A stretch of 64,000 bases of DNA from Mesostigma viride (Eukaryota; Streptophyta; Mesostigmatophyceae; Mesostigmatales; Mesostigmataceae): NCBI GenBank assembly GCA_009746045.1, contig RPFO01000080.1, forward strand, positions 4,689,556 to 4,753,555. The letters are read 5' to 3'. This document shows, in pieces, positions 3,739-30,700 of this stretch. The notes under the pieces are model-generated. The model had not been told where the DNA came from and did not search any database. It worked only from the letters and a program-made list of their open reading frames with translations. A program made the position numbers and the translations under genes. Each line of letters starts with the position of its first letter. Position 1 is the first letter of the stretch.

Positions 3739-5061
3739 TTAGACAGATAGACCGACTTGACAGTCAGCATTCATGAGCTTCCTCAGTACATTGTACTGGG
3801 CTGGGGCCTTGTGTGGCAGCTTTGTCAATGCATCAGCAGGGTTCTCCTCGCCAGGGATATGCTTTAAGTCAACCAAACTGGCCAACTCCTTCAGCAACAA
3901 ATAATCCAGGTCCCGGCTTCTGGCCAGCTGTTTGTGAACAAACTGGACCATACCCATGCTGTCTGTTAGCAACAACGTCTCCATCTGCAAGGTCCAAGGG
4001 GTAACTGAAGCCAGCTCCAGCATTAACTCCTTTATGTACAGGCTGGACTGGATCCCCTCGCATATGGCCCTGCATTCTGCCACATCTGAACTGATACAGA
4101 CCCTCTTCTGCAGTCTGCTGTACCAGCTGAACAAACTTGCCCTGCTCTGATAAAAAGCAAACAGAGCAGCAGATCTCCCCCTGACCTTGGTAACCTGGCG
4201 AGCATCCATGGAACTGTCAACAAAGATCTCCAAGGTGATAGGCTGGGCAAAGTCAATCCCAGACAAAATCAGATCAGGGGTACTCTCCACCAACCGGGCT
4301 ATGACTCGAGGCTTCTTATCCTCACTCAAGCACCTCATCAGGCATTCTGCTATGGACCATCAAAGACGGACCACAGATGCTGGCAAACCAGGCCCACATG
4401 CCTCTCAACTCAGGTCCTGCAGCCTGGGTGATCTTCTCTGGCAAGGCCTTCACAATGGTCTGTTTATAATCTCCTCCAGCCTGAAGCCTGATACTCCACT
4501 CCCCATCCCTCCTGAACAGGGTAGCCTGCATTCCACAGAACACTACAGGCTTGTTGGGCTCCTGCCACAGCTCCTTGCCCAGTGAAGACTTGCCACTGAT
4601 GACAGGAATAAACTTCTTCAGCCAGGTCGTGGGGGCTAGCAAATGCAGATCATCTCCATGCAAACTAGCATACACTGGCAGACCCTCCCATTGGGCCAGC
4701 AGCAAACAGGGATCAACTGAAGACACTCTCAAGCCACACTCACTGATCAGAGCTTCCTGCAGCGTGAGTCTCCAGATGATTGGGCTCGACCTGAGTCCTT
4801 CCAGGCCCTTCAGAATAACCAGGAATTGTTGATGCAGCTCCAGCTTCCAGATGGCAGGCACCTCAACACAGTAAGGCTCATCCTGCTTCCACACCCTCCT
4901 GGCCACTTCTGGATCAGATTTTAAAAATGCCCTCTTGAAGTCCAGCAGCACTGATGACATAGCTGCTCCCCTGTTCAGCAACCCCACGTAGAGACATAGC
5001 AAAATTCTCCATGTGTCGTGTAGCATCCCTGGCGTGTACAGCTCCTCTCCTGGCAGACTCC
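3739..5061 (-). pseudogene. Copia reverse transcriptase and RNase H (frameshifted)
   Basis: Two overlapping open frames, 5137-4322 and 4338-3739, are in different frames, so a frameshift separates them. The first carries RT motif A as LLDFKRAFL and motif C as LHGDDLHLL, with the two catalytic aspartates kept but His-Gly in place of the usual Tyr-Val. The second is RNase H-like: it starts near EIFVDSSMD, has the SSDVAECRA block corresponding to the usual SSTEAEY motif, and ends with KHIPGEENPADALTKL, matching the family's KHI...ADxxTK end. It is the 3' half of the interrupted polyprotein gene. Residues before 5061 in the first frame come from the inserted element, not from the retrotransposon. 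Confidence 0.85.
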
Positions 5062-5067
5062 CCGTGC

Positions 5068-5098
5068 CGGGTGGTTTGTTTGGGTTAGGACAGATTTG
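5068..5098 (+). repeat. Left terminal inverted repeat (31 bp)
   Basis: Begins CGGGTGGTTTGTTTGG and ends GGACAGATTTG. It is identical to the reverse complement of 14248-14278. One extra C at 5067 lies between it and the CCGTG duplication. Confidence 0.85.
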
Positions 5099-5100
5099 TC

Positions 5101-5122
5101 CATTTAGGACAGTCCTGCAGCC
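5101..5122 (+). repeat. Subterminal direct repeat, left copy
   Basis: CATTTAGGACAG then CCTGCAGCC with one base between. The same 22 bases, one mismatch, occur in the same orientation at 14223-14244, just inside the right inverted repeat. The AGGACAG core also occurs inside the inverted repeat, suggesting repeated binding sites for a mobilising protein. Confidence 0.7.
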
Positions 5123-5560
5123 AAAGCGTGAAAACATTAGCTTATTGGTGCCTTACGCATGCTTGCTTCTGCATGATAATTTTTTGAATGGGATTCAACT
5201 GTTTTTATGTGTATATAACTGCCGTCTTGTTTCACGTGTATGTATGTGAATACACAAATGTTCTCAGCATTGAGTTATGCACAATGCACATCAATTAATT
5301 TATTAAAAGTAATTAGTAATCATGTAGACTGCGTCACGTGAGCATAGATTAAGTGAGACAACTATTCCTTGACGCAAGGCGGTCCAACGTCGTGTAAGTA
5401 CAAGCCGTTACTAGTTGTATGAGAAATAAATCGTTGTCCTGATTAGCCAAGATGTTGCACTACCACAATACCCATGATGTTGCTCTTAATAATAATGCCA
5501 TGTCCTATAATGCATGAATGGGCGGTGATCTAAGCATGTCATAAAACATCCTATTCCAGC
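5123..5560. other. AT-rich stretch without gene
   Basis: Non-coding, AT-rich. At 5322-5395 it holds the short motifs GACTGCGTCACGTGAG and AAGTGAGACAACTATTCCT, which also occur at 52163-52190 and 52370-52395. It is therefore likely to contain a piece of a dispersed repeat. Confidence 0.4.
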
Positions 5561-6017
5561 GAGCAGCGGGCAGCGGGCAGCGCGCAGCGGGCAGCGGGCA
5601 GCGGGCAGCGCGCAGCGGGCAGCGCGCAGCGGGCAGCGGGCAGCGGGCAGCGGCAGCGGGCAGCGGGCAGCGGGCAGCGGGCAGCGGGCAGCGCGCAGCG
5701 GGCAGCGCGTAGCGGGCAGCGGGCAGCGGGCAGCGGGCAGCGGGCAGCGGGCAGCGGGCAGCGGGCAGCGGGCAGCGGGCAGCGGGCAGCGGGCTGCGGG
5801 CAGCGGGCAGCGGGCAGCGGGCAGCGGGCAGCGGGCAGCGGGCAGCGGGCTGCGGGCAGCGGGCAGCGGGCAGCGGGCTGCGCGCAGCGGGCAGCGGGCA
5901 GCGGGCAGCGGGCAGCGGGCAGCGGGCAGCGGGCAGCGGGCAGCGGGCAGCGGGCAGCGGGCAGCGGGCTGCGGGCAGCGGGCAGCGGGCAGCGGGCAGC
6001 GGGCAGCGGGCAGCGGG
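5561..6017. repeat. GCAGCGG heptamer minisatellite
   Basis: About 65 tandem copies of a 7-bp unit with a few GCGCAGC and GGCTGCG variants. Because 7 is not a multiple of 3, all frames encode the same Leu-Pro-Ala-Ala-Arg-Cys-type repeat. The ORFs here are artefacts. Confidence 0.95.
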
Positions 6018-6111
6018 GCAAAGTACTGCCAAAAAAAGGGACCCTGCTTTGGGCTGGGCGGAGCCAGCGGGTTACTCTAGTAATAATTAGTCACAAGGTC
6101 CTGTTGGGACG

Positions 6112-7445
6112 CTAACGCGGTGGCGCAAATTCGTATGGCACATACATGCGTGGCGCCTCGCGTGGCGCAGATTCACATGGCACATACATGCGCGGCGCCT
6201 CGCGTGGCGCAGATTCACATGGCACATACATGCGCGGCGCCTCGCGTGGCGCAGATTCACATGGCACATACATGCGCGGCGCCTCGCGTGGCGCAGATTC
6301 GCATGGCACATACATGCGCGGCGCCTCGCGTGGCGCAGATTCGCATGGCACATACATGCGCGGCGCCTCGCGTGGCGCAGATTCGTACGGCACATACATG
6401 CGCGGTGCCTCGCGTGGCGCAGATTCGCATGGCACATACATGCGCGGCGCCTCGCGTGGCGCAGATTCACATGGCACATACATGCGCGGCGCCTCGCGTG
6501 GCGCAGATTCGCATGGCACATACATGCGCGGTGCCTCGCGTGGCGCAGATTCGCATGGCACATACATGCGCGGCGCCTCGCGTGGCGCAGATTCGCATGG
6601 CACATACATGCGCGGCGCAGATTCGCATGGCACATACATGCGCGGCGCCTCGCGTGGCGCAGATTCACATGGCACATACATGCGCGGCGCCTCGCGTGGC
6701 GCAGATTCGCGTGGCACATACATGCGCGGCGCCTCGCGTGGCGCAGATTCGTATGGCACATACATGCGCGGCGCCTCGCGTGGCGCAGATTCGCATGGCA
6801 CATACATGTGCGGCGCCTCGCGTGGCGCAGATTCACATGGCACATACATGCGCGGCGCCTCGCGTGGCGCAGATTCGCATGGCACATACATGCGCGGTGC
6901 CTCGCGTGGCGCAGATTCGCATGGCACATACATGCGCAGCGCCTCGCGTGGCGCAGATTCGCATGGCACATACATGCGCGGCGCAGATTCGCATGGCACA
7001 TACATGCGCGGCGCCTCGCGTGGCGCAGATTCGCATGGCACATACATGCGCGGTGCCTCGCGTGGCGCAGATTCGCATGGCACATACATGCGCGGCGCCT
7101 CGCGTGGCGCAGATTCGCATGGCACATACATGCGCGGCGCAGATTCGCATGGCACATACATGCGCGGCGCCTCGCGTGGCGCAGATTCACATGGCACATA
7201 CATGCGCGGCGCCTCGCGTGGCGCAGATTCGTATGGCACATACATGCGCGGCGCCTCGCGTGGCGCATAGTCTGGTGCCGGCACCGCTGCCGCTGTTGCC
7301 GCAGGGGGCGCACTGGCTGCCGGCACCGCTGCCGCCGCTGCCGTGGTGGGCACACCGGCTGCCGCCACCGCTGCTTTGGTGGGTGCGGCGGCTGCCGCCC
7401 CCGCTGCCACTGCCGCCGCCGCCTCTTTATGCTTCTGCAGCAGTC

Positions 7446-7476
<31 letters not shown>

Positions 7477-8871
7477 CTGCTGCAGCTTTGTCATCATGGC
7501 ATTAAATTGCTGCTGTTGCTGTTGCTGTTGCTGCTTCATCATGCTGTCGAATTGCTGCAGCAGCGCTGCCATCCCCTTCGAATTTTCAGCCGGGGCGTCA
7601 GGCTGCTTGGCAGGCGCTGAGCCGTTTTCTGAGCGGCGCTGGCGCTTGACTGGTTTCGTCGCCGCAGCTTCTTTGGCAGGCTGCTTGCTCACGATGCGCT
7701 TGCCGCGCCCATGCACGTTGGTGACCTCCTGCAACGCGGGCAGCCCTGCAATTTGTGGGTCGGGCATGTCAGAGTCTTGTGTTATGCAAGCTGGCAGACG
7801 TGGCAGCGTAGCCGGGTATTTCGCCAAGAGGGCCGATCCTGGAAACTGCTCAGCGGACAAGATGAATGGCGGTGGGCCAGCACTCAATATCTGGGGCAGC
7901 AGGTCCGCCTTGTTCTTGATGGCCCAACTCATCACCGCCTGCATGTCCTCATTCCAAGCGGATGATGGGAGAACGCCCTTGTGCTCCAACCCCAGGGTAG
8001 TGGGAAACGTGGTGGCATTCTTGTCGTTGACAACGATGACCACTGCGTCGAAAAATCCGATCGCGGACGGTCGCCTGGTTGGGCTGCCTTTGAGTCGGTC
8101 GAGCAAGTTTTTAAATTTCTTGTAGCGGCTCTGCCTCACAAAATGCGCGCAGATTGACGAGCTCGCGATTGCCCCCACTACCACCCCCACATGAGGCCAT
8201 TCGGGGATTGCAAGGGCCACGATATCATCCTCGCTGTCGCTGGTGGAAGCACCGCCTGGTGTTTTGTGCATCCCCGGCCCTGCCGGTGGAGGAGAAAAAG
8301 CTAGTTCTTTTCTTGTGTCGCCGACATCGAAATGACGCGACGCCGAAGCCCGAAAGGTACCAGCTGCAGGGCCCGGGGTGTTCTCCTTCTTGGAGGCGTC
8401 GCGCTCAACCACGGGAATGTGCGCGCCGCCAACAGCATGCTTGCCAACCGTGGGGCCCATCGCAGCACGCAAAGCTGCATCACCTTGGCCGCTCTTGTCC
8501 TGATTGCCATCACCCATCGCACCCTTGCCTGCGCCGTTCTTTTCCTCCTCGCCATCACCCATCGCACCATAGCCAGCGCCGTTCTTTTCCTCCTCGCCAT
8601 CACCCATCGCACCATTGCCGCCTGCGCCGTTCTTTTCCTCCTCGCCATCACCCATCGCACCATTGCCGCCTGCGCCGTTCTTTTCCTCCTCGCCATCACC
8701 CATCGCACCATTGCCGCCTGCGCCGCTCTCCTCCTCGACGCCACCACCAAGCGCAACACCGCCTGGGCCGTTCTTCTCCTCGACGCCACCACCCGTTGCA
8801 TCATCATCGACATGACCCTCGTCATGCAATATTATCACCAGAACCCAGCTCACCATCGTCGACCCTTCCAT
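6112..8871 (-). CDS. Repeat-rich nuclear-type protein of the TIR element
   Basis: An open frame of 919 residues. The N-terminus has five Gly/Glu-rich repeats of about 15 residues (GAMGDGEEEKN core, residues about 50-125). A non-repetitive part of about 200 residues follows (around 195-400), containing SRYKKFKNLL and FFDAVVIVVND; I do not recognise it as a known domain. Then come a basic KPVKRQRR patch typical of a nuclear signal, two polyglutamine runs, an Ala-rich stretch, and about 27 copies of a 14-residue repeat (APREAPRMYVPCES) to the end. The frame overlaps the zinc-finger frame 9268-8822 by 50 bases, so the two are probably one gene separated by a frameshift or small intron. The non-repetitive part is the only useful search query. 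Confidence 0.5.
6130..7268. repeat. 42-bp coding minisatellite
   Basis: About 27 units of 42 bp, a few shortened by internal deletions (for example at 6601-6625), encoding the C-terminal 14-residue repeats of the minus-strand protein. Units stay multiples of 3, consistent with selection for the frame, but other frames on both strands are open as well. Confidence 0.95.
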
Positions 8872-9268
8872 CCACGACTCTGGCTAGCTTAACGAGTTTC
8901 CGTGATGGAACCTTAACGACCTTGCCCTTGCCGCCCAGCGAATAAAGAGCACCAAGGCCGGCCAGTTGGGCGTCGACCACCTTTTCCTTAAAATCGACAG
9001 GCGAGGCCTCCTTACTGATGGCGGTAGGCGGCCAAGGGCCGCCACACTCCTGGCAGGTCCACTCTGTGCCATCCTCACCCGCCGATGCATCCCTAAACAT
9101 CCCGGTGCACAGCCCATGCAAGTGCTTGCCACACTGGCCTGAGCATGGATGGTTGGCTCCGCCCAGCAGCTCATTTTTGTCGACACTATCAAATCCGGTT
9201 GCATGATCAGCGCCGGGCAATTTCTTGCATCTATCGCCTGCGTAGCAGGGGCCGCTTGACCCCTGCAT
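8822..9268 (-). CDS. PHD-like zinc-finger N-terminal part
   Basis: 148 residues. Cysteine/histidine pattern: CYAGDRC, then CSGQCGKHLHGLC about 30 residues later, then WTCQEC. A C-x-x-C pair preceded by Trp after an earlier Cys/His cluster is typical of PHD-type chromatin-binding fingers; the spacing is not canonical, so the family call is tentative. Its 3' end overlaps the next frame (8871-6112), and the frame switches near 8822-8871. Together they may form one protein of about 1,050 residues. It starts about 270 bases from the palindrome cluster and is divergent from the plus-strand gene. Confidence 0.45.
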   Translation of the reverse strand: MQGSSGPCYAGDRCKKLPGADHATGFDSVDKNELLGGANHPCSGQCGKHLHGLCTGMFRDASAGEDGTEWTCQECGGPWPPTAISKEASPVDFKEKVVDAQLAGLGALYSLGGKGKVVKVPSRKLVKLARVVDGRVDDGELGSGDNIA

Positions 9269-9459
9269 TCTTCGCTTGCTACAGATTTAACCACCGGAAA
9301 ATAGACAAAGATTGCACGCAACCTTCCAATAATGCCGGCTGCGATTTAACCTTCGTTTGCTGGGCGCTGCACGCTGCAATGTATCGAGTCAATTTGCGCG
9401 GGATCTTTGAATAGGTATATGTTTAGGCAAGAGGCTGCGGCGTCATTTGGCTGCAGCTG

Positions 9460-10145
9460 GGTAACTACTTGCGTCTTGCGGCCAAGATACGCAGCCTGCC
9501 TCGAGAGGGCTGCGTATCTTTGCCGCAGCCTGCCTCACCAGCTAAAAACCTTGCGGCCAAGATACGCAGCCTGCCTCCTCGAGGATATCCTCGAGGAGGC
9601 AGGCTGCGTATCTTGGCCGCAAGGTTTTTAGCTGGTCATTTGGCTGCCAGGGTAACTACTTGCGTCTTGCGGCCAAGATACGCAGCCTGCCTCGAGAGTC
9701 GAGGCAGGCTGCGTATCTTGGCCGCAAGACGCAAGTAGTTACTTCCCCAGCTGCCGAGGCAGGCTGCGTATCTTTGCCGCAGCCTGCCTCACCAGCTAAA
9801 AACCTTGCGGCCAAGATACGCAGCCTGCCTCCTCGAGGATATCCTCGAGGAGGCAGGCTGCGTATCTTGGCCGCAAGACGCAAGTAGTTACTTCCCCAGC
9901 TGCCGAGGCAGGCTGCGTATCTTTGCCGCAGCCTGCCTCACCAGCTAAAAACCTTGCGGCCAAGATACGCAGCCTGCCTCCTCGAGGATATCCTCGAGGA
10001 GGCAGGCTGCGTATCTTGGCCGCAAGGTTTTTAGCTGGTGAGGCAGGCTGCGGCAAAGATACGCAGCCCTCTCGAGGCAGGCTGCGTATCTTGGCCGCAA
10101 GACGCAAGTAATTACTTCCCCAGCTGCCGAGGCAGGCTGCGTACA
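9460..10145. repeat. Cluster of nested perfect palindromes
   Basis: One 28-bp module (CTTGCGGCCAAGATACGC...) and its reverse complement alternate. Exact palindromes: 9537-9636 (100 bp, no spacer, centred on GAGGATATCCTC), 9804-9877 (74 bp), 9911-10068 (158 bp, no spacer), and 9652-9742 (44-bp arms, 3-bp spacer). It lies between the divergent genes of the TIR element, where promoters and a replication or recombination signal could sit. Confidence 0.9.
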
Positions 10146-10570
10146 TTTTGGCGGCAAGTTCCCCAGCTGTTCGCTGCTTAGGCAAGTTGTTGCAACGACT
10201 TCGCCACGTGACTGCCAACAGGGGCGCCTGCGTTCAAGTCTTCAGTGCGTGCCCTGGCGGCACATCATTATTACGTAAATAGCCGTGAAGCTTTCGGTAC
10301 CTTAGCAGTTTATAGTTGGATTTATGGCAGACAAGGCTGACTGCAGGATATTATTTTGTGGTTTAACAAGTGACGCCGAAATGAATAGGCACGGAGCCGA
10401 AAAATAGCCGACGTAGTTGATTTGGAGACGAGTTGTTAGCATTGATGACAAAAATGGGATTAGGTTTACACAGGACAGTAATAGGCGCTGAGCTGCTTAC
10501 TCTTATGAGGTCCGGCATCCATTCAGCGCCGGGGGAGTCCTGCTTTTGGTTTAGGTTGAAACTTTTATAA

Positions 10571-13492
10571 ATGTTAGAGATAAAGGCTAGGATAGCAAAA
10601 TGGCCGAACATGTCGAGTGGGACGGAGGTATTGTCTCCGACTCGGACGACGATGACGATTTTGCGTACCATGACGGAGGGCTCGGTCGTGCTATACTGGC
10701 ATCCCACGTGCCAAATGCTCTGCAACACCGACGTCCCCTGGCCCCCCATGTTGGTGGGGGTGGTGAAGAAGGTAGAGCAGCCTGCCGATGAGGGGGGCAG
10801 CGAGCCTCACCTGGTCCTCTCTGTATACCGTGCCAGGAGCATGACCGATGCTTGGCATCAGTGGGACCCGAACAGCGCCACATGGCCTCTGCCGAGCAAG
10901 TCGTCCGCAAACTCCCACACAGTCACCATCGCAGCATCCGAGGTCATCCTCACCTATTGGATCCCGGCGAAGAAGCCCACCTCGCGCCACTTGGTGTCTT
11001 TGGATGCCAAGAAAAAGCTGTCTGCTGCGTGCCTGACCGCGCTCAAGCAGGTGCCAAGGGACGCAGGTCACCCGACGGTTGACTGGCAACTAGCTTCAAC
11101 TCCCAAGGGTGTGGTGCACATGGCTGAACGTTGCTGGCAAACGATCTTGGAGCAGGTGATGGGTGGCAAGCTCTGCCTGGTAGGACAACTTGTGTGCAGC
11201 TATGAGATTGTGCACGAGTCCGTCGGCGGCCGCACAGTGAACCGTCCTAGAAGATTCCATGGTCAAGTGGCAGCTGTGGACACGGAACATGGCAAGGTGG
11301 CTATGTTTTGGGGTGCTCAATGGGAAGAGCTGGCGGTGACGTGTGTGGACCTCCCAGAATTGGGGAAGAAAATCTGTGGATGCCCCGGTGTGTCGGTCCC
11401 TCCTCTGCAAGCGTCTGAGATCGCCGTTGCCGAGTCCCGCTTACGTGCGGAGGTGCACGCTGCGCTGACCAGCGCAACTGCGCGCAGCTCGCCTGAGGCA
11501 GCGCGCGGCACGGCCGACACAACTAAGCGCAAGCCGCCTGCGCCTGCAGCAACCAGCACAGCCACGCGCAACCCACGTGCGGTGGCGACCAACTTGCGCG
11601 CAGCAGTGCGCGCCCTGAATGATAAGGCTGCAAGTGACTTGCGTGCGCCCGCGCGTGCGGCCACCGGCGCGGCTGCACCTGCCAACTCGCCTGCGCCTGC
11701 ACTCACGACCACCGGCGCGGCTGCACCTAGCAAGTCGCCTACGCCCGCGCGCGCGGCAGCCGGCGTGGCTGCACCTGCCAACTCGCCTGCGCCTGCACTC
11801 ACGACCACCGGCGCGGCTGCACCTAGCAAGTCGCCTACGCCCGCGCCTGCGGCCCCCGGCGCGGCTGCACCTGCCAACTCGCCTGCGCCCGCGCCTGCGG
11901 CCACCGGCGTGGCTGCACCTGCCAACTCGCCTACGCCCGCGCCTGCGGCCACCGGCGCGGCTGCACCTGCCAACTCGCCTGCGCCTGCGCGCGCGGCAGC
12001 ACCTGCCAACTCGCCTGCGCCTGCGCGCGCGGCCACCGGTGTGGCTGCACCTGCCAACTCGCTTGCGCCTGCGCGCGCGGCAGCACCTGCCAACTCGCCT
12101 GCGCCTGCGCGCGCGGCCACCTGCGCGGCTGCACCTGCCAACTCGCTTGCGCCTGCGCGCGCGGCAGCACCTGCCAACTCGCCTGCGCCTGCGCGCGCGG
12201 CCACCTGCGCGGCTGCACCTGCCAACTCGCCTACGCCCGCGCCTGCGGCCACCGGCGCGGCTGCACCTGCCAACTCGCTTGCGCCTGCGCGCGCGGCAGC
12301 ACCTGCCAACTGGCCTGCGCCTGCGCGCGCGGCAGCACCTGCCAACTCGCTTGCGCCTGCGCGCGCGGCAGCACCTGCCGACTCGCCTGCGCCTGCGCGC
12401 GCGGCCACCGGCGTGGCTGCACCTGCCAACTCGCCTACGCCCGCGCCTGCGGCCACCGGCGTGGCTGCACCTGCCAACTCGCCTACGCCCGCGCCTGTGG
12501 CCACCGGCGCGGCTGCACCTGCCAACTCGCTTGCGCCTGCGCGCGCGGCAGCACCTGCCAACTCGCCTGCGCCTGCGCGCGCGGCCACTGGCGTGGCTGC
12601 ACCTGCCAACTTGCCTACGCCCGCGCCTGCGGCCACCGGCGCGGCTGCACCTGCCAACTCGCTTGCGCCTGCGCGCGCGGCATCACCTGCCAACTCGCCT
12701 GCGCCTGCGCGCGCGGCCACCGGCGTGGCTGCACCTGCCAACTCGCCTACGCCCGCGCCTGCGGCCACCGGCGCGGCTGCACCTGCCAACTCGCTTGCGC
12801 CTGCGCGCGCGGCAGCACCTGCCAACTCGCCTGCGCCTGCGCGCGCGGCCACTGGCGTGGCTGCACCTGCCAACTTGCCTACGCCCGCGCCTGCGGCCAC
12901 CGGCGCGGCTGCACCTGCCAACTCGCTTGCGCCTGCGCGCGCGGCATCACCTGCCAACTCGCCTGCGCCTGCGCGCGCGGCCACCGGCGTGGCTGCACCT
13001 GCCAACTCGCCTACGCCCGCGCCTGCGGCCACCGGCGCGGCTGCACCTGCCAACTCGCTTGCGCCTGCGCGCGCGGCAGCACCTGCCAACTCGCCTGCGC
13101 CTGCGCGCGCGGCCACCTGCGCGGCTGCACCTGCCAACTCGCTTGCGCCTGCGCGCGCGGCAGCACCTGCCAACTCGCCTGCGCCTGCGCGCGCGGCCAC
13201 CGGCGTGGCTGCACCTGCCAACTCGCCTACGCCCGCGCCTGCGGCCACCGGCGCGGCTGCACCTGCCAACTTGCTTGCGCCTGCGCGCGCGGCAGCACCT
13301 GCCAACTCGCCTGCGCCTGCGCGCGCGGCCACCTGCGCGGCTGCACCTCCCGACTCGCCTGCGCCTGCGCGCGCGGCAGCCGGCGCGGCTGAAGAAGATA
13401 TGTTGTCTGATTCCCGTCGTCGCCGGGCACACCGTTACATAGTGTGTCCGGACAGTGATAGCGATGGAGCCCCGGAGGCTATGGAAACATGA
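10571..13492 (+). CDS. Plus-strand gene of the TIR element, Ala/Pro repeat protein
   Basis: The long frame has 973 residues, but its first 40 look out of frame. A better start is ATG at 10600, giving an acidic N-terminus (SDSDDDDD), with a frame change near 10660-10690 into the long frame. Residues about 38-290 are non-repetitive and include GSVVLYWHP and PWPPMLVGVV, which resembles the aromatic/proline motif of PWWP-like barrels; this is weak evidence. The rest, to about residue 930, is Ala/Pro repeats (PANSPAPARAA). The C-terminus is Ser/Asp-rich with an Arg cluster. It is divergent from the zinc-finger gene across the palindromes. The function is unknown and it does not look like a transposase. 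Confidence 0.5.
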   Translation: MLEIKARIAKWPNMSSGTEVLSPTRTTMTILRTMTEGSVVLYWHPTCQMLCNTDVPWPPMLVGVVKKVEQPADEGGSEPHLVLSVYRARSMTDAWHQWDPNSATWPLPSKSSANSHTVTIAASEVILTYWIPAKKPTSRHLVSLDAKKKLSAACLTALKQVPRDAGHPTVDWQLASTPKGVVHMAERCWQTILEQVMGGKLCLVGQLVCSYEIVHESVGGRTVNRPRRFHGQVAAVDTEHGKVAMFWGAQWEELAVTCVDLPELGKKICGCPGVSVPPLQASEIAVAESRLRAEVHAALTSATARSSPEAARGTADTTKRKPPAPAATSTATRNPRAVATNLRAAVRALNDKAASDLRAPARAATGAAAPANSPAPALTTTGAAAPSKSPTPARAAAGVAAPANSPAPALTTTGAAAPSKSPTPAPAAPGAAAPANSPAPAPAATGVAAPANSPTPAPAATGAAAPANSPAPARAAAPANSPAPARAATGVAAPANSLAPARAAAPANSPAPARAATCAAAPANSLAPARAAAPANSPAPARAATCAAAPANSPTPAPAATGAAAPANSLAPARAAAPANWPAPARAAAPANSLAPARAAAPADSPAPARAATGVAAPANSPTPAPAATGVAAPANSPTPAPVATGAAAPANSLAPARAAAPANSPAPARAATGVAAPANLPTPAPAATGAAAPANSLAPARAASPANSPAPARAATGVAAPANSPTPAPAATGAAAPANSLAPARAAAPANSPAPARAATGVAAPANLPTPAPAATGAAAPANSLAPARAASPANSPAPARAATGVAAPANSPTPAPAATGAAAPANSLAPARAAAPANSPAPARAATCAAAPANSLAPARAAAPANSPAPARAATGVAAPANSPTPAPAATGAAAPANLLAPARAAAPANSPAPARAATCAAAPPDSPAPARAAAGAAEEDMLSDSRRRRAHRYIVCPDSDSDGAPEAMET
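11640..13390. repeat. GC-rich 36/48-bp coding minisatellite
   Basis: Alternating units of about 36 and 48 bp built on CTGCCAACTCGCCTGCGCC, all multiples of 3. Several blocks are nearly identical over 200 bp (for example 12545-12720 and 12800-12980), a sign of recent homogenisation. Confidence 0.9.
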
Positions 13493-14222
13493 AGTCGCGG
13501 TTGCTACCATTGTTGCTACCAATGATTGCTATGTGTGCACCATGGCTGCCAACATTGCTGCTTCCTTTGCTGCTTCTCCGCTGATATGCCGTGCTTTTGA
13601 TTCACTCTCTGCCATGCATGCCAGTATAGTGCTGCCACCATTGTCATGATGTAACTTGTCAACACCAATGCATGTTCTGATTCTGATGTGATTGATTATA
13701 TTCCTGGCCTGCATGAGTCTGTTGAGGTTGTTTGTCGCTGCTGCGGCTGCTATGACCATTACTAGTGTGCTCATGTGAGTTTTTTGCCATGTCCATTTGC
13801 GCAGTCATGGAGCATTTCAAGGTTTGCCCGAGATTTACGAGACCCAAGTGTCAGTCATTTTCCGCGAAGCCGCGATATAATCCCTGACAGAAACTGGCAA
13901 AAACCACATGGAACATATGCAGAATCCTCCTTGATAATGTCTCATGTAGTAGATACATTCCAGCCTTTGCAATTACAATCACGTCACTAAATTTTTAAGT
14001 ATGCAAAATTACAAGCTGTGAGTGCAATTGTCTCTACTCATCATAAGATACCAGCTTGACAATCATGAATGCCCATTTGGTTACAGCATATAAGGCAACT
14101 TGTCATTATATAACACAATTATTGACTTGAAACTCCTCGACCAATGCAAAAATTTGCCCAAACCTTCTATCAAACTATTTTGGGAAGTCCACAGCATCCA
14201 AAAAACACATTTTTCAAATTTT
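13493..14222. other. 3' flank of the plus-strand gene
   Basis: No coding exon recognised. It would hold the 3' untranslated region and the AT-rich inner right end of the TIR element. Confidence 0.4.
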
Positions 14223-14244
14223 CATTTAGGACAGACCTGCAGCC
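14223..14244 (+). repeat. Subterminal direct repeat, right copy
   Basis: Matches 5101-5122 with one mismatch in the same orientation, although the neighbouring terminal repeats are inverted relative to each other. Confidence 0.7.
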
Positions 14245-14247
14245 TCC

Positions 14248-14278
14248 CAAATCTGTCCTAACCCAAACAAACCACCCG
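14248..14278 (-). repeat. Right terminal inverted repeat (31 bp)
   Basis: Reverse complement of 5068-5098 without mismatch. It is followed by CCGTG at 14279-14283, the right copy of the presumed target duplication. Confidence 0.85.
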
Positions 14279-14283
14279 CCGTG

Positions 14284-16416
14284 ATACTCATTCAGGACAG
14301 GCCTGACATGGGGCACTGATACCTCATCCACAACCTTCCTCTTCAGCACAAATCTCAAAGCAAGCTTCCTTGATGCTGGGGGACGTCTGTCTGTTGGTGC
14401 AGCACACTCAAACTGCAACCACTCCTCCAATGCCTTGGAGAAGGCGAGCTTCCAAGCCTCAAACAAAGTAGGCGAGCTCATCTCTTGGACTAGCTGGTCA
14501 TATGTCAAAGGAGAGTGTGCAGCAAGGCTCCTGTGAGTTATGCCAATACTGCTGGGGTGCAACACAGCTGGAATCACCAAACTGGCTGCTGGGGGCACCT
14601 CCCCTTCATCCCATTTTACACCCTTGACCGGCTTGACCCTGCACCTGATTGGAAATGTTGTCCTGAAATTTTCTAGGGGAATCATCCCCCAGCCATCTCT
14701 TTTCAGAGCTGTAGCTCTGATAGAAATCCCAGGATTGCCCAGAAAATTCTGACCCAAAATCACAGGGCCATCATAGTCCTCTAGGACAAGGAAGGTCACA
14801 TCCACACCCATGACAGGGGCAGTAACCTCTCCCAACACCCTTAGATGCGTCCTACCACTGAAATCAGACACCCAGGGGCAACTTGGTTCTCCGACCAGCA
14901 GTTCTCCTGTATGCTGAGGTCCCATGACAGAAACCTGTGCATTGGTATCTATCTCCATGGCAGCTACCTCAGGTTCATCCAACTGGACAAGCTTGGACAC
15001 CTTAGGCTCCTTCTTGGCTCTTTGCAAAGCCTGTACAATATCTGATAGACGCACACCCCTAGGCCTGGTGTCGGGCCGTTCCGGAGGTGCAGCCTGTCCG
15101 CCTGCTTGCCCAACCACCGTATGTGAAGGTACCCCAGGGGCCGGGCCAGGGTCACCCTGAGGGCTCGATACAGCTGTAGCACCCTGATCAGGAAGCTCCA
15201 CGTCACCCCCGCCTTGTACACCAGCGGGCACCTGGAAGAGGTCTCCTTGATTACCTCCCCGGGGACGGATCTTTGACCAGGACAGACGGTGCACTGCTTG
15301 GGAGCCATCAATGGCCACCCAGCACTTATGGCCAGCGGCTTCTACTCGGGTCACCACCCCATCATGCCAGCTGCCACGTTTCCCTGGAAAGCTTGGTTCC
15401 TTCCACACAACAACCTGTTGTCCAACGTTAGGTTCTAGGACACTCCAGCCCTTGTCTTTCTGCCTCAGCTTGAGGAACTTGGCCTCTAGCTTCTCCTTCC
15501 ATGCCTGCTCAGCATCAGCTGGCAGCATCCTGGTATGCAGCATAAGAGGATTGATGGCAATGTCACCAAAGAACATGGGAGTCCTGAGGTTCAGCCTATC
15601 CTCCACAGAACGTAGCCATGCAGATGTCACAATGGCAGATGACGTCCTTGGAATCCTCTCCACCAGCAGCACAGTCTTGATCTCTTGGATGGCTCTCTCC
15701 ACCACCCCTTGCTGGCCGTGGCTCTCCCTGGGTGTAATCAGCAACTCTGGAAACTCTGGCAGGTTCTCACAGCACTCAAACTGAATGTCACACTGCAACA
15801 ACTCCAACCCAGGGTACCTGCTCCTTGTCAACTTCAGAGCAGCAATTAATGTAGGCTTCTCCATGTCAGGCAGGATCTCTAGGGTCTTGTACTTGGTATA
15901 TCTGTCCACTGCCACCAGCAGCTTCAAACCCCTGATTCTCTGAATATCTACCTGCACATGGCCTGGCTGCAAAATAGGAGTCCTGGCATGAGACTGCTTG
16001 GGCTTTCTAGCAACTAGCCTGCACTTGCAAGCTTGAGCAACCTGTTGGCAGATGGAGTACAACTCACTTCCTCCCAGCCGTCTAGCAACTTGCAAAGACT
16101 GAGCTGCATGGCCAAACATGGTATGCAACCTTGAGGCAATGTCATACAAGAGAGAAAATCTTTTATTGTCATTATTAGCACTCAAGGTATGTACAGATCC
16201 CTTATGTACAGGAGGCACCAGGGTCGTGCCTGTCAGACTGTCTCCAGCCCTATCCTCATCCTGACCATCCTGTGCCAGTCCTGCACGGTCAGAATGCTTC
16301 TGAGATCCACCTGGGTCCACATCACCAGGTCCTACCTCAGGCTCAGCACCGCCATGGCGGGCACGTTGGCGAGTAACCACTGCAGCTACAGCTGGCATAC
16401 TCTCTGTGGTAACCAA
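14284..16416 (-). pseudogene. Copia integrase with retropepsin-like domain
   Basis: A single open frame. Near its start lies DGASLVTTES, the remnant of a DTGAS-type protease site broken by a frameshift around 16410. Then come a GAG-pre-integrase zinc motif (LHTMFGH then paired cysteines, about residues 95-135), an integrase core (Asp in HVQVDIQ, Asp in LLQCDIQ, Glu in GVVERAIQEIK, with spacing a little shorter than DD35E), and a C-terminal integrase barrel-like stretch. About residues 480-570 form a second retropepsin-like unit: EIDTNAQVSVM and, 60 residues on, VILGQNFLG. The frame ends in the N-terminal part of reverse transcriptase (RPVLNEYH), where the 9.2-kb element interrupts it. Finding a retropepsin between integrase and RT is unusual for Copia. 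Confidence 0.8.
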
Positions 16417-16555
16417 GCTTGCCCCATCGTGTCCAATAGGCTCTTCACTAGAGCATGGGGCTGCCCCTCACTGCCGTCACTAGCAGCTACATTACACACC
16501 CCTGGGGGCACCCTCCAGGGTTCAGGGATGTGTGCAGGCTCAAGTCAATGATCAG

Positions 16556-18752: not shown

Positions 18753-18847
18753 TCACCACCGGACGAGCTCCTCGCGTCGTCAACGCTGCACACCGCAACC
18801 AGCAACGACCCTCCTGGCCGTTCCGCTGAGACTGTTTGTAATTTGAG

Positions 18848-19508
18848 TTAAGGGGACTCGTCACCAAAACACCAAAAAATCAATAAAAATTCAAAACTCA
18901 CATTAAACCTATGCGAACAATGCCCAAATGGGTTTGGGGACCCAAAGTAGCATTTATGACGATTTGTCGTGCACTTACTTGGGGTATTACCCCCGGCATT
19001 TGGCTAAAAATAGCACAAGACGCTAAACCGTTTTTGCCACGCCACGGTCAATAGGAGCATCTGATTGACCTGCCCATACATTCCAAACAAGTTCCCCCTC
19101 TCCGCGACCGTTTGAGTTACTAACATGGTTCAGCGGGTCAGGTTTGTGAGAGTTATTAATTTTCCCGCGAAAAAAGACCGTATTTTGGCGGGAAAATTAA
19201 TAACTCTCACAAACCTGCCCCGCCGACCCATGTTAGTAGCTCAAACGGTCGAGGAGAGGGGGAACTCGTTTGGAATGTATGGGCAGGTCAATCAGATGCT
19301 CCTATTGACCGTTGGGCGGCAAGAACGGTTTAGCGTCTTGTGCTATTTTTAGCCACATGCCAGGCGACATACCCCTAGTAAGTGCACGACAAATCGTCAT
19401 AAATGCTACTTTGTGTCCCCAATCACTTTTGGGCACTGTTTGCATAGGTTTAATGCGAGTTTTGAATTTTTATTGATTTTTTGGTGTTTTGGTGACGAGT
19501 CCCCTTAA
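18848..19508. mobile_element. TTAA foldback MITE, 661 bp
   Basis: A near-perfect inverted repeat with arms of about 310 bp. The left end reads TTAAGGGGACTCGTCACC, the right end its reverse complement, and the centre is around 19170 (TTTCCCGCG...GGCGGGAAA). TTAA at both ends fits the TTAA target duplication of piggyBac- or Kolobok-type transposases. No coding capacity. It lies about 95 bp upstream of the 308-residue ORF. Confidence 0.9.
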
Positions 19509-20254
19509 CGTTCTTAGCAAACGCAATGTGAAGGATATGGTTGCAATGCAGCAATGTGTGAATATGGTTGGAAACGGAGCTTTGTTAAAAATTGGATAAT
19601 GTTACAGCGCTCACACACTTGAGGCTTGTACACGAGTTTGCCAAGTCAAGGCAACACACGTGAGGCGGGCTCGCAAGAGATGCCCAATTGGCACTGGCCT
19701 ATTCTTTATATACTTGTGCACTGTGCTTGCTAGCGATCCTGAGCAGCCTAGGAGGCCTGCTCAGTAATAACACCCCCGGTACAGTATTCACTACCTGTAC
19801 AGCGCCCAGTTCCTATACAGTAGGTCTGCCATACAGGCACAGTGACCACAGAGTACAGTCACCACAGTGATTATTGCATCTGCACCTAGAAGTCCAGGAC
19901 TAGGCCTGCGGTACCACCAGACCACAGGTTAAGGTTCCTATTTCCTGCGTACGACTATTAACCCAATACCGTCGTAGGTTCAGCACCTAATTCCTGTCAG
20001 CCCAGGAATTACTGTCGACCCCATATGTCGTCGGCAAATATTCACGTCCGACTTAGAAGAACAGCCGGCTCGCGCTCGCGCGCGACCGGGAAGTCGGAAC
20101 GCCATAACTTTCTTGATACTTGTCGGAATGAACTCGTTCCGGTGCCGCTGGAATCGCAGAGAAATGCCGAATCAGGATCACGCCAATGCGCTTGGCGTTA
20201 CCTATCGGTACCAAGGTTACGTTCGGTACTGCCTATCACTCCTCCTCCTCTCAT
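19509..20254. other. Unassigned, possible retroelement remnants
   Basis: Non-coding. 19780-19930 is rich in short ACAGT/CCAG repeats of the kind found in LTRs. 19950-20100 holds an inverted GTACGAC/GTCGTA motif. No matching LTR partner was found. Confidence 0.3.
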
Positions 20255-24460: not shown

Positions 24461-25921
24461 CTAGGTCCTAGTTACAGGGGTGTGGGCACCGCGGCCCGAA
24501 TCGCTATGAATGCCATACTTGGTCACACGCGGAGCCCCCACAGGCTTGGGGGTGGTCTCCTTCATCACTACTTGCCATCTATCCTTGCGCACCATCTGCC
24601 TCCATATTACAGACAAACCAGGAGGCTGCCCGGGGGTGAGCCCGTCACGTCTAGTGTAGCACATGTCCATGCCGAGTCTATCACGAAAAGTCCACGGGTG
24701 GCGGCCCTGCCGCGCGCGGCCGGGGGCACGCCAGGTGAGGACATATCGCCCAGGCTGGGCGGGCTTGCCGGTGCCAGCTAGTCTATCTGATGTACATATC
24801 TACCTGATCTGTGCGGGCCAGGTGCCCGGCTAGGCCCAGGCGCCTGTGCCTAATAATGTGGGAAACATAGGGCAAATCAGCGTACAAATCCTCATTACTA
24901 ATGTGCAAACCAAAGGGGATGTTAAGGGCCTTGCGCAGCATCTTGGTGACGGCGCCGTCGAGTCGTTGCTCCAGCTCCTGCATCAGTGTCCACGTCTCGG
25001 CGCCGTAGGTCAGGATCGTCAGAATGACGACCTTGAAGAGGTCACGCTTGACGATCCGGGTAAGGGCGGGGTTGCTCCACCAGCGGCGGTGGTCATGGAG
25101 GTGCGCCCACGCCATGCCGATCCGTGTCGTCATGTCGTCCTCGCAGTCGGGAAGCCAACTGCTGAGCAGCTTGAAGCGGCCTGAAGGAGGGTAGTTGACC
25201 TCGGCATCGTCTAAGAGGCGGAGTGTGGGTGGGGGCCCTGCCATGCCGAGGGCCAGGGCCTCCGTTTTGGGGCTGATTTCTAGACCAACCGCCCGAGCCT
25301 CGAGCGCCAGGCAGTCCAGCCAAAGTTGGGCAGACTCCGGCTTCTCGATGAGCGTGATGTCGTCGGCATAAATGAGGCCAGCTAGTAAATTCTGCTCGTT
25401 AGTCGGCCCCCCTTCCCCAAGCTCGTTCGTGATCGCTAGGCCAGGGGCACGGCCTGCAATGCTAGCAAAGCGAGCACGTGCCTGGCGCATAACATAATCC
25501 ACTACAATAATAAACAGGTACGGCGACAGGACGCAACCCTGCCAGACGCCGGTCTGCAGTGGGCATGGCGGGGTAATGCCGTGTTGAGTGCGCACCGAAG
25601 TGGTCGACCCCTCATACAGCGTGCGGATGACGGTAATCAGGGGAGTGGGGACGCGAGCGCGAGCAAGTATAGCCCAGAGAGCGTCCCAGAGGACAGAATC
25701 AAAAGCCTTGATGAAGGCGACGAAGATCAAGATTGCGGGAAACTCACCAGGTTGCAGGAGAGCGATTTCCTCGAAGAGGCGACGCGCGACGAAGATGGCC
25801 ATACTGAGTCAAAGGCCTTGACATCAGCCATGAAGACCATGAGTGGACAGGGTACGGCACCTGGGTTCAGCCGCCGCACTTCCTCCCGATAAGCCGGCGT
25901 CACAGCAGCAAAGCCGGCCAT
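24461..25921 (-). pseudogene. Non-LTR retrotransposon reverse transcriptase
   Basis: On the minus strand the frame 25802-24783 has RT motif A-like LIFVAFIKAFDSV, motif B GVWQGCVLSPYLF and motif C LIYADDITL. A thumb/C-terminal part follows (LTYGAETWTL, HRRLGLAGHLAR). After a frameshift near 24780 the C-terminus runs to a stop at 24461 (PGLSVIWRQMVRKDRW). The catalytic Asp of motif A is Ala here. Upstream, 25921-25803 repeats the same region (LMVFMADVKAFDSV), again with Ala at that position, so the motif A segment is duplicated in tandem. The endonuclease and first ORF are absent, so it is 5'-truncated and dead. Confidence 0.85.
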
Positions 25922-27793: not shown

Positions 27794-30700
27794 CTAGACT
27801 CTCTGCTGGCAAACGTAGTCCAGGGGCCCAGGCACAAAGTTGCCCGTACAGTCCTTGGTTGAGCCAGTCGAGCCGCAGTTGGCGGGACAGTCGACGCAGT
27901 TGTCCTGGTAGGTAGGTCCCCCGCCCCCTGAGCCAGTTCCAGCCGCGCAGCAGCAGACACCGTGGGAGTGGCAGGGGTTGCCCCCCACACTGCTGCAGTT
28001 TGGGCCATCACAATCCTTGATGCACGCACAGATCTTGCTCGAACCGCCGCGCTTCTGGCACGCCGCGTTGGAGCAGAGCAGGTCACAGGTAACCCCCGAG
28101 GGCTTTGGCAGGCAGCCGATACCTGAGCAGCAGCAGCCGCCGGAGCACTGGCTGTCGCTTGTGCACGCTGCCGTGACAGTCAAGACCACAATGGGGCATG
28201 CAACCCGAAGAAACGGACAGGTGTCATGCCAAGAAGAAAACAGAAAGCATTATGCCAAACTCCCCCCCCCACCCCCCACCCCCCACCCCACCCCACCCCA
28301 CCACGTTAGGTTCCCATCTCAGGGCCACGGCATTAAAAACTTTGTGAAAGCCAAACACAGGTAGCAGCCTGCTGCTTCATTCCCAACACTTGCCAGATGC
28401 CTAAATGCACCTGTTCCACCATTACCGTAAACACTAGTAAGAGACCCACTCACTACCAAACCCATGGGTAGACAGCTAGAGTGCAGCAACCAATGAAAAA
28501 TAAATCCTGCCCTTATGCAGATCCCAGCCCCCCCAAAGAACTTGCATCTGTGGAAAATGGAGCTACAAGTGAGTGCAAAGCATGGCGGAAAACAAAAAAG
28601 ATGAAGGGCAGTAGGCGTGCGCTTGTGTGGTCGCACGCCTGCAAGCACAAAAGCTGAGGACTCACTGCAACCGGTGATAGGCGTGTGGCTGCAGCTGTCC
28701 GTCGCCTCGTTGCAGGAATCCTGGGTGCAAGGGTTTGTGTCATCGCAGTTAATCGCCGTCCCTGCCTGGCACCCTGCCGTGGCACTACACGTCTCCTGGC
28801 CGTTGCAGTACAGCCCATCATCACACAGCGAGTTGCTGGGATTGTGGTCGCAAGAGTCGGTCGCCTCGTTGCAGGCGTCCACGGTGCAAACCACATTGTC
28901 ATCGCAGTTAATCGCCGTCCCTGCCTGGCACCCTGCCGTGGCACTACACGTCTCCTGGCCGTTGCAGTACAGCCCATCATCACACAGCGAGTTGCTGGGA
29001 TTGTGGTCGCAAGAGTCGGTCGCCTCGTTGCAGGCGTCCACGGTGCAAACCACATTGTCATCGCAGTTAATCGCCGTCCCTGCCTGGCACCCTGCCGTGG
29101 CACTACACGTCTCCTGGCCGTTGCAGTACAGCCCATCATCACACAGCGAGTTGCTGGGATTGTGGTCGCAAGAGTCGGTCGCCTCGTTGCAGGTGTCCAC
29201 GGTGCAAACCACATTGTCATTGCAGTTAATCGCCGTCCCTGCCTGGCACCCTGCCGTGGCACTACACGTCTCCTGGCCGTTGCAGTACAGCCCATCATCA
29301 CACTGCGAGTTGCTGGGATTGTGGTCGCAAGAGTCGGTCGCCTCGTTGCAGGTGTCCACGGTGCAAACCACATTGTCATTGCAGTTAATCGCCGTCCCTG
29401 CCTGGCACCCTGCCGTGGCACTACACGTCTCCTGGCCGTTGCAGTACAGCCCATCATCACACTGCGAGTTGCTGGGATTGTGGTCGCAAGAGTCGGTCGC
29501 CTCGTTGCAGGTGTCCACGGTGCAAACCACATTGTCATCGCAGTTAATCGCCGTCCCTGCCTGGCACCGTCCGTGGGCATCGCAAGTCTCCTGACCATTG
29601 CAGTAGTTGCCGTCATCGCAGCGGGCATTCGTACATGCTGCGGATGGCAGTTGGTCGCCCAGAGATATGGGAGAAGAGGTCACAGGGATCCACGTGTTAA
29701 GTCAGTTAGAAGAACACGCTCCTCACCCCTTGCCCATGACAGCCAGTAAATGGAACGGCAAGCCCCCCCCGATGAAACTGTAGGCAACGTGCAACTTCAC
29801 TACAGCTATATATTCACAACTGCAGCGACCTACTGCCCATCGGGAGCAGCATAGGGTGAAAACAAGGGTGAGAAAAGACTGCATTCAACGAGCTCTGCAA
29901 GGGACTCCGCAGCTACCGTTCGCCTCAAGCCCACTCCACACCGCTCGATGGTTTTTGTTGCTTAAAGAGACAGCCAGATCTTTCATGCGCGTTCGGGAAC
30001 CACGTATGCGGTCATCGGACATCCTTCCAAGCACACACGTCACATGCAACCATGCAGACACGTCACATGCAACCATGCAGACACGTCACATGCAACCATG
30101 CAGACACGTCACATGCAACCATGCAGACCCATACAACGGTATTGCACCCAGCTAACGAGTAAATTTACAAGTGCACGAGACAGGAGCCGTAGCAAGCGAG
30201 GGGGGGGAGGGGAGACTTACTGGGCGGCACAACAATGTCCGTCACCGAGATGTAGCCGCAGTCGCACTTGGACGAGGGCTTCGGGTACGTGGCCAGCACG
30301 CTGTTGCACACTGTCTCACCCCCCCCCGTGGACCAGCTGGTGCAGTAGGGCAGCGACAGCCGGTTCGTGCCGTCATTCCGGCATTGCACGGTCACGGAGC
30401 CGACCTGGTGTGCACGGACGGGGTGGTGGTGGTTTATAGATTTAGGTCTATAGATTCATTTAGGTTTATAGATTCAGTTTCCTGGGGAAGGGTATAGAGT
30501 TGAAAGGGGAAGGAATGCCTAGTAAGAACACCTGACCCGGATCACCTTGCCTGGCTCCCAAGAATTCAGCTTTTCTCAAGCAACCAACCAACCAATCTGG
30601 TAAAGTGAATGCCCGTGTGCAAGCTTACAGCCACTGTCAGAACAGACAAGCGCTTTACTAGACCCCCTTGTGCCTGTGAAATGCATTTCTAACCTGTATC

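Follow-up and report, generated by a model that had tools for sequence, protein, structure and literature searches.

The window, a stretch of 64,000 nucleotides of Mesostigma viride DNA, carries a retroelement-like gene interrupted by a 9,209-bp insertion that ends in perfect inverted repeats and contains two divergent, partly decayed genes. The features of this locus, in window coordinates, are as follows.

4322-5068, minus strand: interrupted retroelement gene, other part (from the joined frame)
5066..5068, no strand: left 3-bp target duplication, GCC (from paired copies, the empty site and the restored frame)
5069..14277, no strand: whole element, 9,209 bp (from comparison of copies, pairs with target duplications and the empty site)
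5069..5098, plus strand: left terminal inverted repeat, 30 bp, perfect
5557..6017, no strand: array of a 7-bp unit (CAGCGGG), 66 copies
6112..9268, minus strand: accessory gene, its N-terminus weakly PHD-like (two frames: 8822-9268, N-terminal, and 6112-8871)
9461..10115, no strand: nested inverted repeat cluster between the two divergent genes
10600..10791, plus strand: native start of the putative transposase, MAEHVEWDGG, 63 aa and then a stop
10675..10678, plus strand: GGAG microhomology, junction of a 2,423-bp deletion of the DUF7869 part
10679..13492, plus strand: C-terminal remnant of the putative transposase with a repeat-rich tail (from comparison with long copies)
14248..14277, minus strand: right terminal inverted repeat, 30 bp, perfect
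14278..14280, no strand: right 3-bp target duplication, GCC (from paired copies, the empty site and the restored frame)
14281..16467, minus strand: interrupted retroelement gene, upstream part (from the empty site and the joined frame)

Inverted repeats at the element ends gave two matches against none expected (100 shuffles). A search of the host genome with the left 234 bp (window 5067-5300), in which 40 matches were scored among 89 candidates, placed the boundary precisely: 30 of the 40 begin at the third query base, which makes 5069 the first position of the element and GGGTGG its opening sequence. The perfect repeats reported in the preliminary description of this DNA are real, but they measure 30 bp and not 31, since the copies diverge at 5069 and the thirty-first pair belongs to the flank. 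A short word, TTAGGACAG, recurs near and within the ends at 5085, 5104, 14226 and, reversed, 14253. The genome search suggested in that description for other copies with the same ends revealed a multi-copy element, a 25-bp end sequence giving 99 matches with two or fewer mismatches in the 440-Mb host genome (50 forward and 49 reverse), against none for a reversed-pattern control. Five of these matches carry a related end, GGGTTGTTTGTTTGGGTTAGGAGAG, and a sixth differs from GGGTTGTTTGTTTGGGTTAGGAGAG by a single base. Pairing by position and strand produced 36 pairs, which account for 72 of the 99 matches, the other 27 being unpaired or outside the examination.

A constant-length duplication accompanying inverted repeats, a feature of cut-and-paste transposons with such ends, is present: exactly 3 bp are duplicated in 32 of the 36 pairs, against a mean of 1.7 and a maximum of 7 in 2,000 shuffles, the exceptions being L014, L017, L018 and L025. 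One of the 32, C921, lies within a 4-bp tandem repeat and matches over 7 bp too. The duplicated words include GCC, CCC, TCC, GCA, TAA, GGT, ATA, GTG, CTA, GAA and TTA. Nested insertions are probably present in four of the 36 pairs, whose ends lie 17 to 72 kb apart.

The empty-site comparison, also suggested beforehand, agrees with this length. In a sister copy of the retroelement, GACTCCCCGTGCCGTGATACTC reads through the window's insertion point with 229 of 233 bases identical, and the window flanks minus one GCC equal the sister sequence. When the flanks are joined with 3 bp removed, a single 977-aa frame runs over the junction, whereas removal of 5 bp breaks the frame, leaving 778 aa and a stop soon past the junction. 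That sister copy itself holds another copy of the element (C1106:10850340-10863317), 46 bp from the position of the window's insertion point; the spacing perhaps reflects a preferred target, or else chance.

That one gene is split by the insertion had been recognised from the outset, and this part of the claim stands; its assignment to Copia is not confirmed, Pfam listing no model of a reverse transcriptase in the flanking gene and matching rve alone, below threshold (E 0.18). The gene resembles one for a retroelement polyprotein, in which a stretch that may be protease-like (DTNAQVSVM ... VILGQNFLG) lies between integrase-like and reverse-transcriptase-like parts, none of them above the Pfam cut-off, and this order would be unusual for Copia. 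Elsewhere in the window, a retroelement reverse transcriptase occupies 24786-25808 on the minus strand (Pfam RVT_1, E 3.8e-14), an inverted repeat with arms of 327 nt, 93% complementary, and a 9-nt loop lies at 18847-19509, and a Cys-rich 460-aa frame at 28322-29701 (minus strand) consists of near-identical 159-bp repeats (98% matches), with a Dicty_CTDC match just below threshold.

The coding capacity of the element became apparent from its other copies. Among the 40 left-end matches, 20 were read, up to 10 kb each, together with the window, and four of them (L009, L013, L019 and L025) have a plus gene longer by about 2.4 kb, namely by 2,423 bp in L013, L019 and L025 and by 2,422 bp in L009. 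The plus frame of these long copies starts with MAEHVEWDGG, corresponding to window position 10600, and extends for 1,463 aa in L013, 1,484 aa in L019 and 1,463 aa in L025; in L009 it is frameshifted, with 576 aa. An identical deletion junction at GGAG is found in the window and 15 other copies, the position of the junction in L010 being outside the stretch read. Because the deletion shifts the frame, only 63 aa of the native plus frame are left in the window. The 973-aa frame beginning at 10571, which had been read as the plus gene, measures 74 to 1,173 aa in the 15 other deletion copies; it is therefore not a conserved gene, and it is better described as a by-product of the deletion. The remark that the element encodes no familiar transposase is correct for the window copy, but only since the DUF7869 part, retained in the long copies, has been deleted.

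Shared ends, 3-bp duplications and a shared internal deletion thus uphold the suggestion of a DNA transposon in non-autonomous form and support the classification of the window copy as such. As a transposon copy the 9.2-kb insert is genuine and has moved recently, but its own transposase is lost. In a tree of unique segments built from 20 of the 21 sequences (L010 was dropped as too short, and 14 had the right-end segment), the long copies, all four, cluster together with a support of 0.91. The window copy shows no difference from L015, L018 and L026 over 4,235 compared bases, nor from L016 over 3,457. The flanks of L015 and L026, on two contigs, are alike at 54 of 60 bases, which suggests that the two are probably one site; the window copy would then match copies at three other sites throughout the compared segments, a sign of very recent movement. 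Near-identical copies diverge in a short stretch beside the palindromes (96.6%), and total lengths differ, L018 (9,424 bp) and L015 (9,788 bp) both exceeding the window copy (9,209 bp). Differences of hundreds of bases among L015, L016, L018 and the window lie mainly in tandem-repeat stretches and reflect either fast repeat change or assembly error.

The plus-gene product of the long copies matches Pfam DUF7869 (PF25273) with an E value of 7.7e-14 and 52.2 bits, the curated cut-off being 26. No other Pfam model was returned for it at E up to 1, and neither a CACTA nor a Harbinger transposase model was among the results. In the host genome the DUF7869 model matched at all 150 places scored among 275 candidates, many of them in open frames longer than 500 aa, whereas none of 14 control genomes gave a match. 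At least five families of DUF7869 genes are present in the host; besides the element's own, those sampled are A (by L088), C (L092), D (L030) and E (L090), all of which exceed the cut-off and thus share the domain with the element's protein. An alignment of the five families has invariant residues D371, D463 (in QxDGG), and D502 and D504 in a GHTHxDxDQ motif (L019 numbering), as well as an invariant CxxC pair at 313/316 that precedes the first candidate D. Comparison of the element's family with C and A yielded dN/dS values of 0.32 (dS 1.2) and 0.26 (dS 1.7), respectively, with dS near saturation. From these conserved positions we infer a DDE/D-type transposase with D371, D463 and either D502 or D504 as candidate catalytic acids. 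Two AlphaFold runs reached mean pLDDT values of just 45 and 43, too low to lend support to an RNase H fold. In family A (L088:4856-6650), a 1.8-kb GC-rich repeat array breaks the alignment of this protein just past the DUF7869 part.

Searches for more distant relatives returned none for residues 60-620 of the protein among 5.8 billion proteins, none for the five-family alignment in the same collection (7,995 candidates scored), none for the N-terminal part of the 973-aa frame in it, none for the protein family in the viral contigs scanned and none in a PDB sequence search, so that the protein and viral-contig searches link DUF7869 to no proven transposase. The Pfam entry assigns the domain no function, its role in transposition being proposed here, and no mention of DUF7869 was found in a literature search that largely covered papers outside subscription.

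The minus gene is a single open frame of 917 aa in L009 and of 894 aa in both L013 and L025; it stops after 338 aa in L019, and in 12 deletion copies, the window's among them, it runs out of frame past residue 148. An exact probe for its start was not found in L010, L014, L021, L022 or L028. Its N-terminus has a sub-threshold Pfam PHD match (E 0.0054). Between L009 and L013, a dN/dS of 0.59 was obtained from 20 differences in residues 1-560, a value that hints at constraint, if weakly. In family A a counterpart of the N-terminal part is 50.6% identical over 83 positions and is likewise divergent from the transposase gene; no counterpart was found in the stretches read, as opposed to whole elements, of families C, D and E. 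In family E (L090:170-1258, minus strand), a 362-aa frame divergent from the transposase gene has no Pfam match and is unlike the window's minus gene. Since a relative with the same divergent layout occurs in a second DUF7869 family, the minus gene is probably the element's own rather than captured cargo, which weighs against the idea of a cargo-carrying element. Its product may serve target choice, regulation or assistance to the transposase.

The connection between DUF7869 and transposition could be followed in a second family, D, whose putative transposase is 33.6% identical to that of the window's element over 723 positions and whose terminal repeat is different (GAGGGGATTCATAAGTG, a GAGGGG-type end). 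A 29-base pattern of this repeat has 294 matches in the host genome and none in the control, and among the matches listed, nine of ten pairs show a 3-bp duplication, against a mean of 1.0 and a maximum of 7 in 5,000 shuffles. By coordinates, four of these nine pairs enclose a DUF7869 match, as does the one pair lacking the duplication, C2; the other five may be deletion derivatives, and the DUF7869 scan scored 150 of 275 candidates. Ends and duplication length were thus scored in two DUF7869 families, the window element's and D, which have different ends and share both DUF7869 and the 3-bp duplication.

Several other readings were weighed against these data. The original proposal of a giant new element with a 5-bp duplication drew on the presence of CCGTG on either side of the insertion; this is a chance match around GCC, a 5-bp duplication being found in none of the 36 pairs and the empty site and restored frame giving 3 bp, and an assembly join is excluded by the many copies at other sites, leaving either version a negligible chance of being correct. 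No more credible is the notion that the short form is original and that 2.4 kb was inserted later into the long copies: the overlap of eight bases with one mismatch seen at the junction in local alignments could mimic a target duplication, but the additional sequence makes one open frame complete, and such a gain is ruled out by families A and C, which align with the long protein on either side of the junction and across it. It is also quite improbable that DUF7869 is a passenger and that an unrecognised protein, for instance the minus-gene product, is the transposase. The poor predicted structures, with catalysis by the DUF7869 protein deduced rather than observed, leave some room for this; against it stand the DUF7869 gene and 3-bp duplication common to two families with different ends, the lack of a minus-gene counterpart in the stretches read, from partial elements, of families C, D and E, and the 16 copies without DUF7869, which are near-identical derivatives, as dependents should be.

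A harder question is whether the element falls within a superfamily already named. With PIF/Harbinger (PHIS) it shares a 3-bp duplication, two genes and ends rich in G and T, as plant Tourist elements have; the second protein is of the Myb/SANT type in PIF/Harbinger, whereas only a weak PHD match was obtained here, and Pfam returned no Harbinger transposase model for the element's protein. The preliminary description had considered Transib, for which it gave 5-bp duplications and CAC ends; both features are absent here, with 3 bp and GGG instead. Jordan of Volvox, the subject of Miller et al. 1993 and likewise algal and non-autonomous, reportedly makes a 3-bp duplication, and is set apart by its description as a 1.6-kb element with 12-bp inverted repeats and no long frame, compared with 9,209 bp and 30-bp repeats here. 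The Harbinger target is TWA (PMC4482050), in contrast to the duplications here, which follow no fixed sequence (5 of 32 are TTA or TAA). CACTA/EnSpm relatives (CMCT) make duplications of 2-5 bp, 3 bp in some EnSpm as here, and mostly end in 5'-CA..TG-3' (PMC12730594); CAC..GTG termini are absent, the ends being GGG..CCC here and GAGGGG in family D, and Pfam gave no CACTA transposase model. Zator (3-bp) and AcademX (3-4 bp) are alike in duplication length (PMC10045372) and are set apart by the Pfam result, which gave DUF7869 as the sole model for the element's protein.

That the element belongs to such a named superfamily with a duplication of about 3 bp (a divergent CACTA/EnSpm, PIF/Harbinger, AcademX or another Repbase entry), with DUF7869 as a mere Pfam label, has a considerable chance of being right, although the balance leans against it; the mechanism would not change in that case, and the lineage would simply carry an older name. 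Jordan, with its reported 3-bp duplication, speaks for this reading. It has been likened to En/Spm and CACTA (PMC5093975), and several named groups make duplications of this length (PMC10045372, PMC12730594, PMC4482050). Opposed to it are the Pfam result, the GGG or GAGGGG ends instead of CAC, target words other than TWA and the silence on DUF7869 in the literature searched. No description of such an element was found in the titles or abstract openings of the literature on 3-bp superfamilies and on algal or PHD-bearing transposons, mostly outside subscription papers and Repbase. The early claim of a new DNA transposon family thus survives as to the DNA transposon and fails as to the 5-bp duplication, and an undescribed family may well be where the element belongs. 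The broader proposal, that DUF7869 proteins are transposases of an uncatalogued eukaryotic superfamily of cut-and-paste elements with 3-bp duplications of variable sequence, GGG or GAGGGG ends, a divergent accessory gene in at least two families and at least five families in this genome, one of them recently moved with a deletion derivative, is put forward tentatively, at almost even chances.

The 9.2-kb insertion is thus very probably a non-autonomous copy, with an internal deletion, of a cut-and-paste transposon whose fuller copies encode a putative DUF7869 transposase and an accessory protein. In such copies, two divergent genes flanking the palindrome cluster would specify the transposase (1,463-1,484 aa) and its companion (894-917 aa). 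The DUF7869 protein would bind the 30-bp ends, cut the element out and join it to target cuts made 3 bp apart, with no fixed target word. Faulty repair of the gap left by excision most likely produced the 2,423-bp deletion at GGAG; the deleted form, having kept both ends, could then have spread, moved in trans by enzyme supplied from fuller copies.

What emerges looks like a DUF7869-type lineage of cut-and-paste transposons, and a domain of unknown function acquires a likely job, transposition, for which the ends, the target duplications and the empty site all speak. Activity could be tested directly in the host, given the near-identical copies found there at several sites, and, if the lineage proves to be unnamed, DUF7869-labelled genes of other genomes would deserve a check as transposons.
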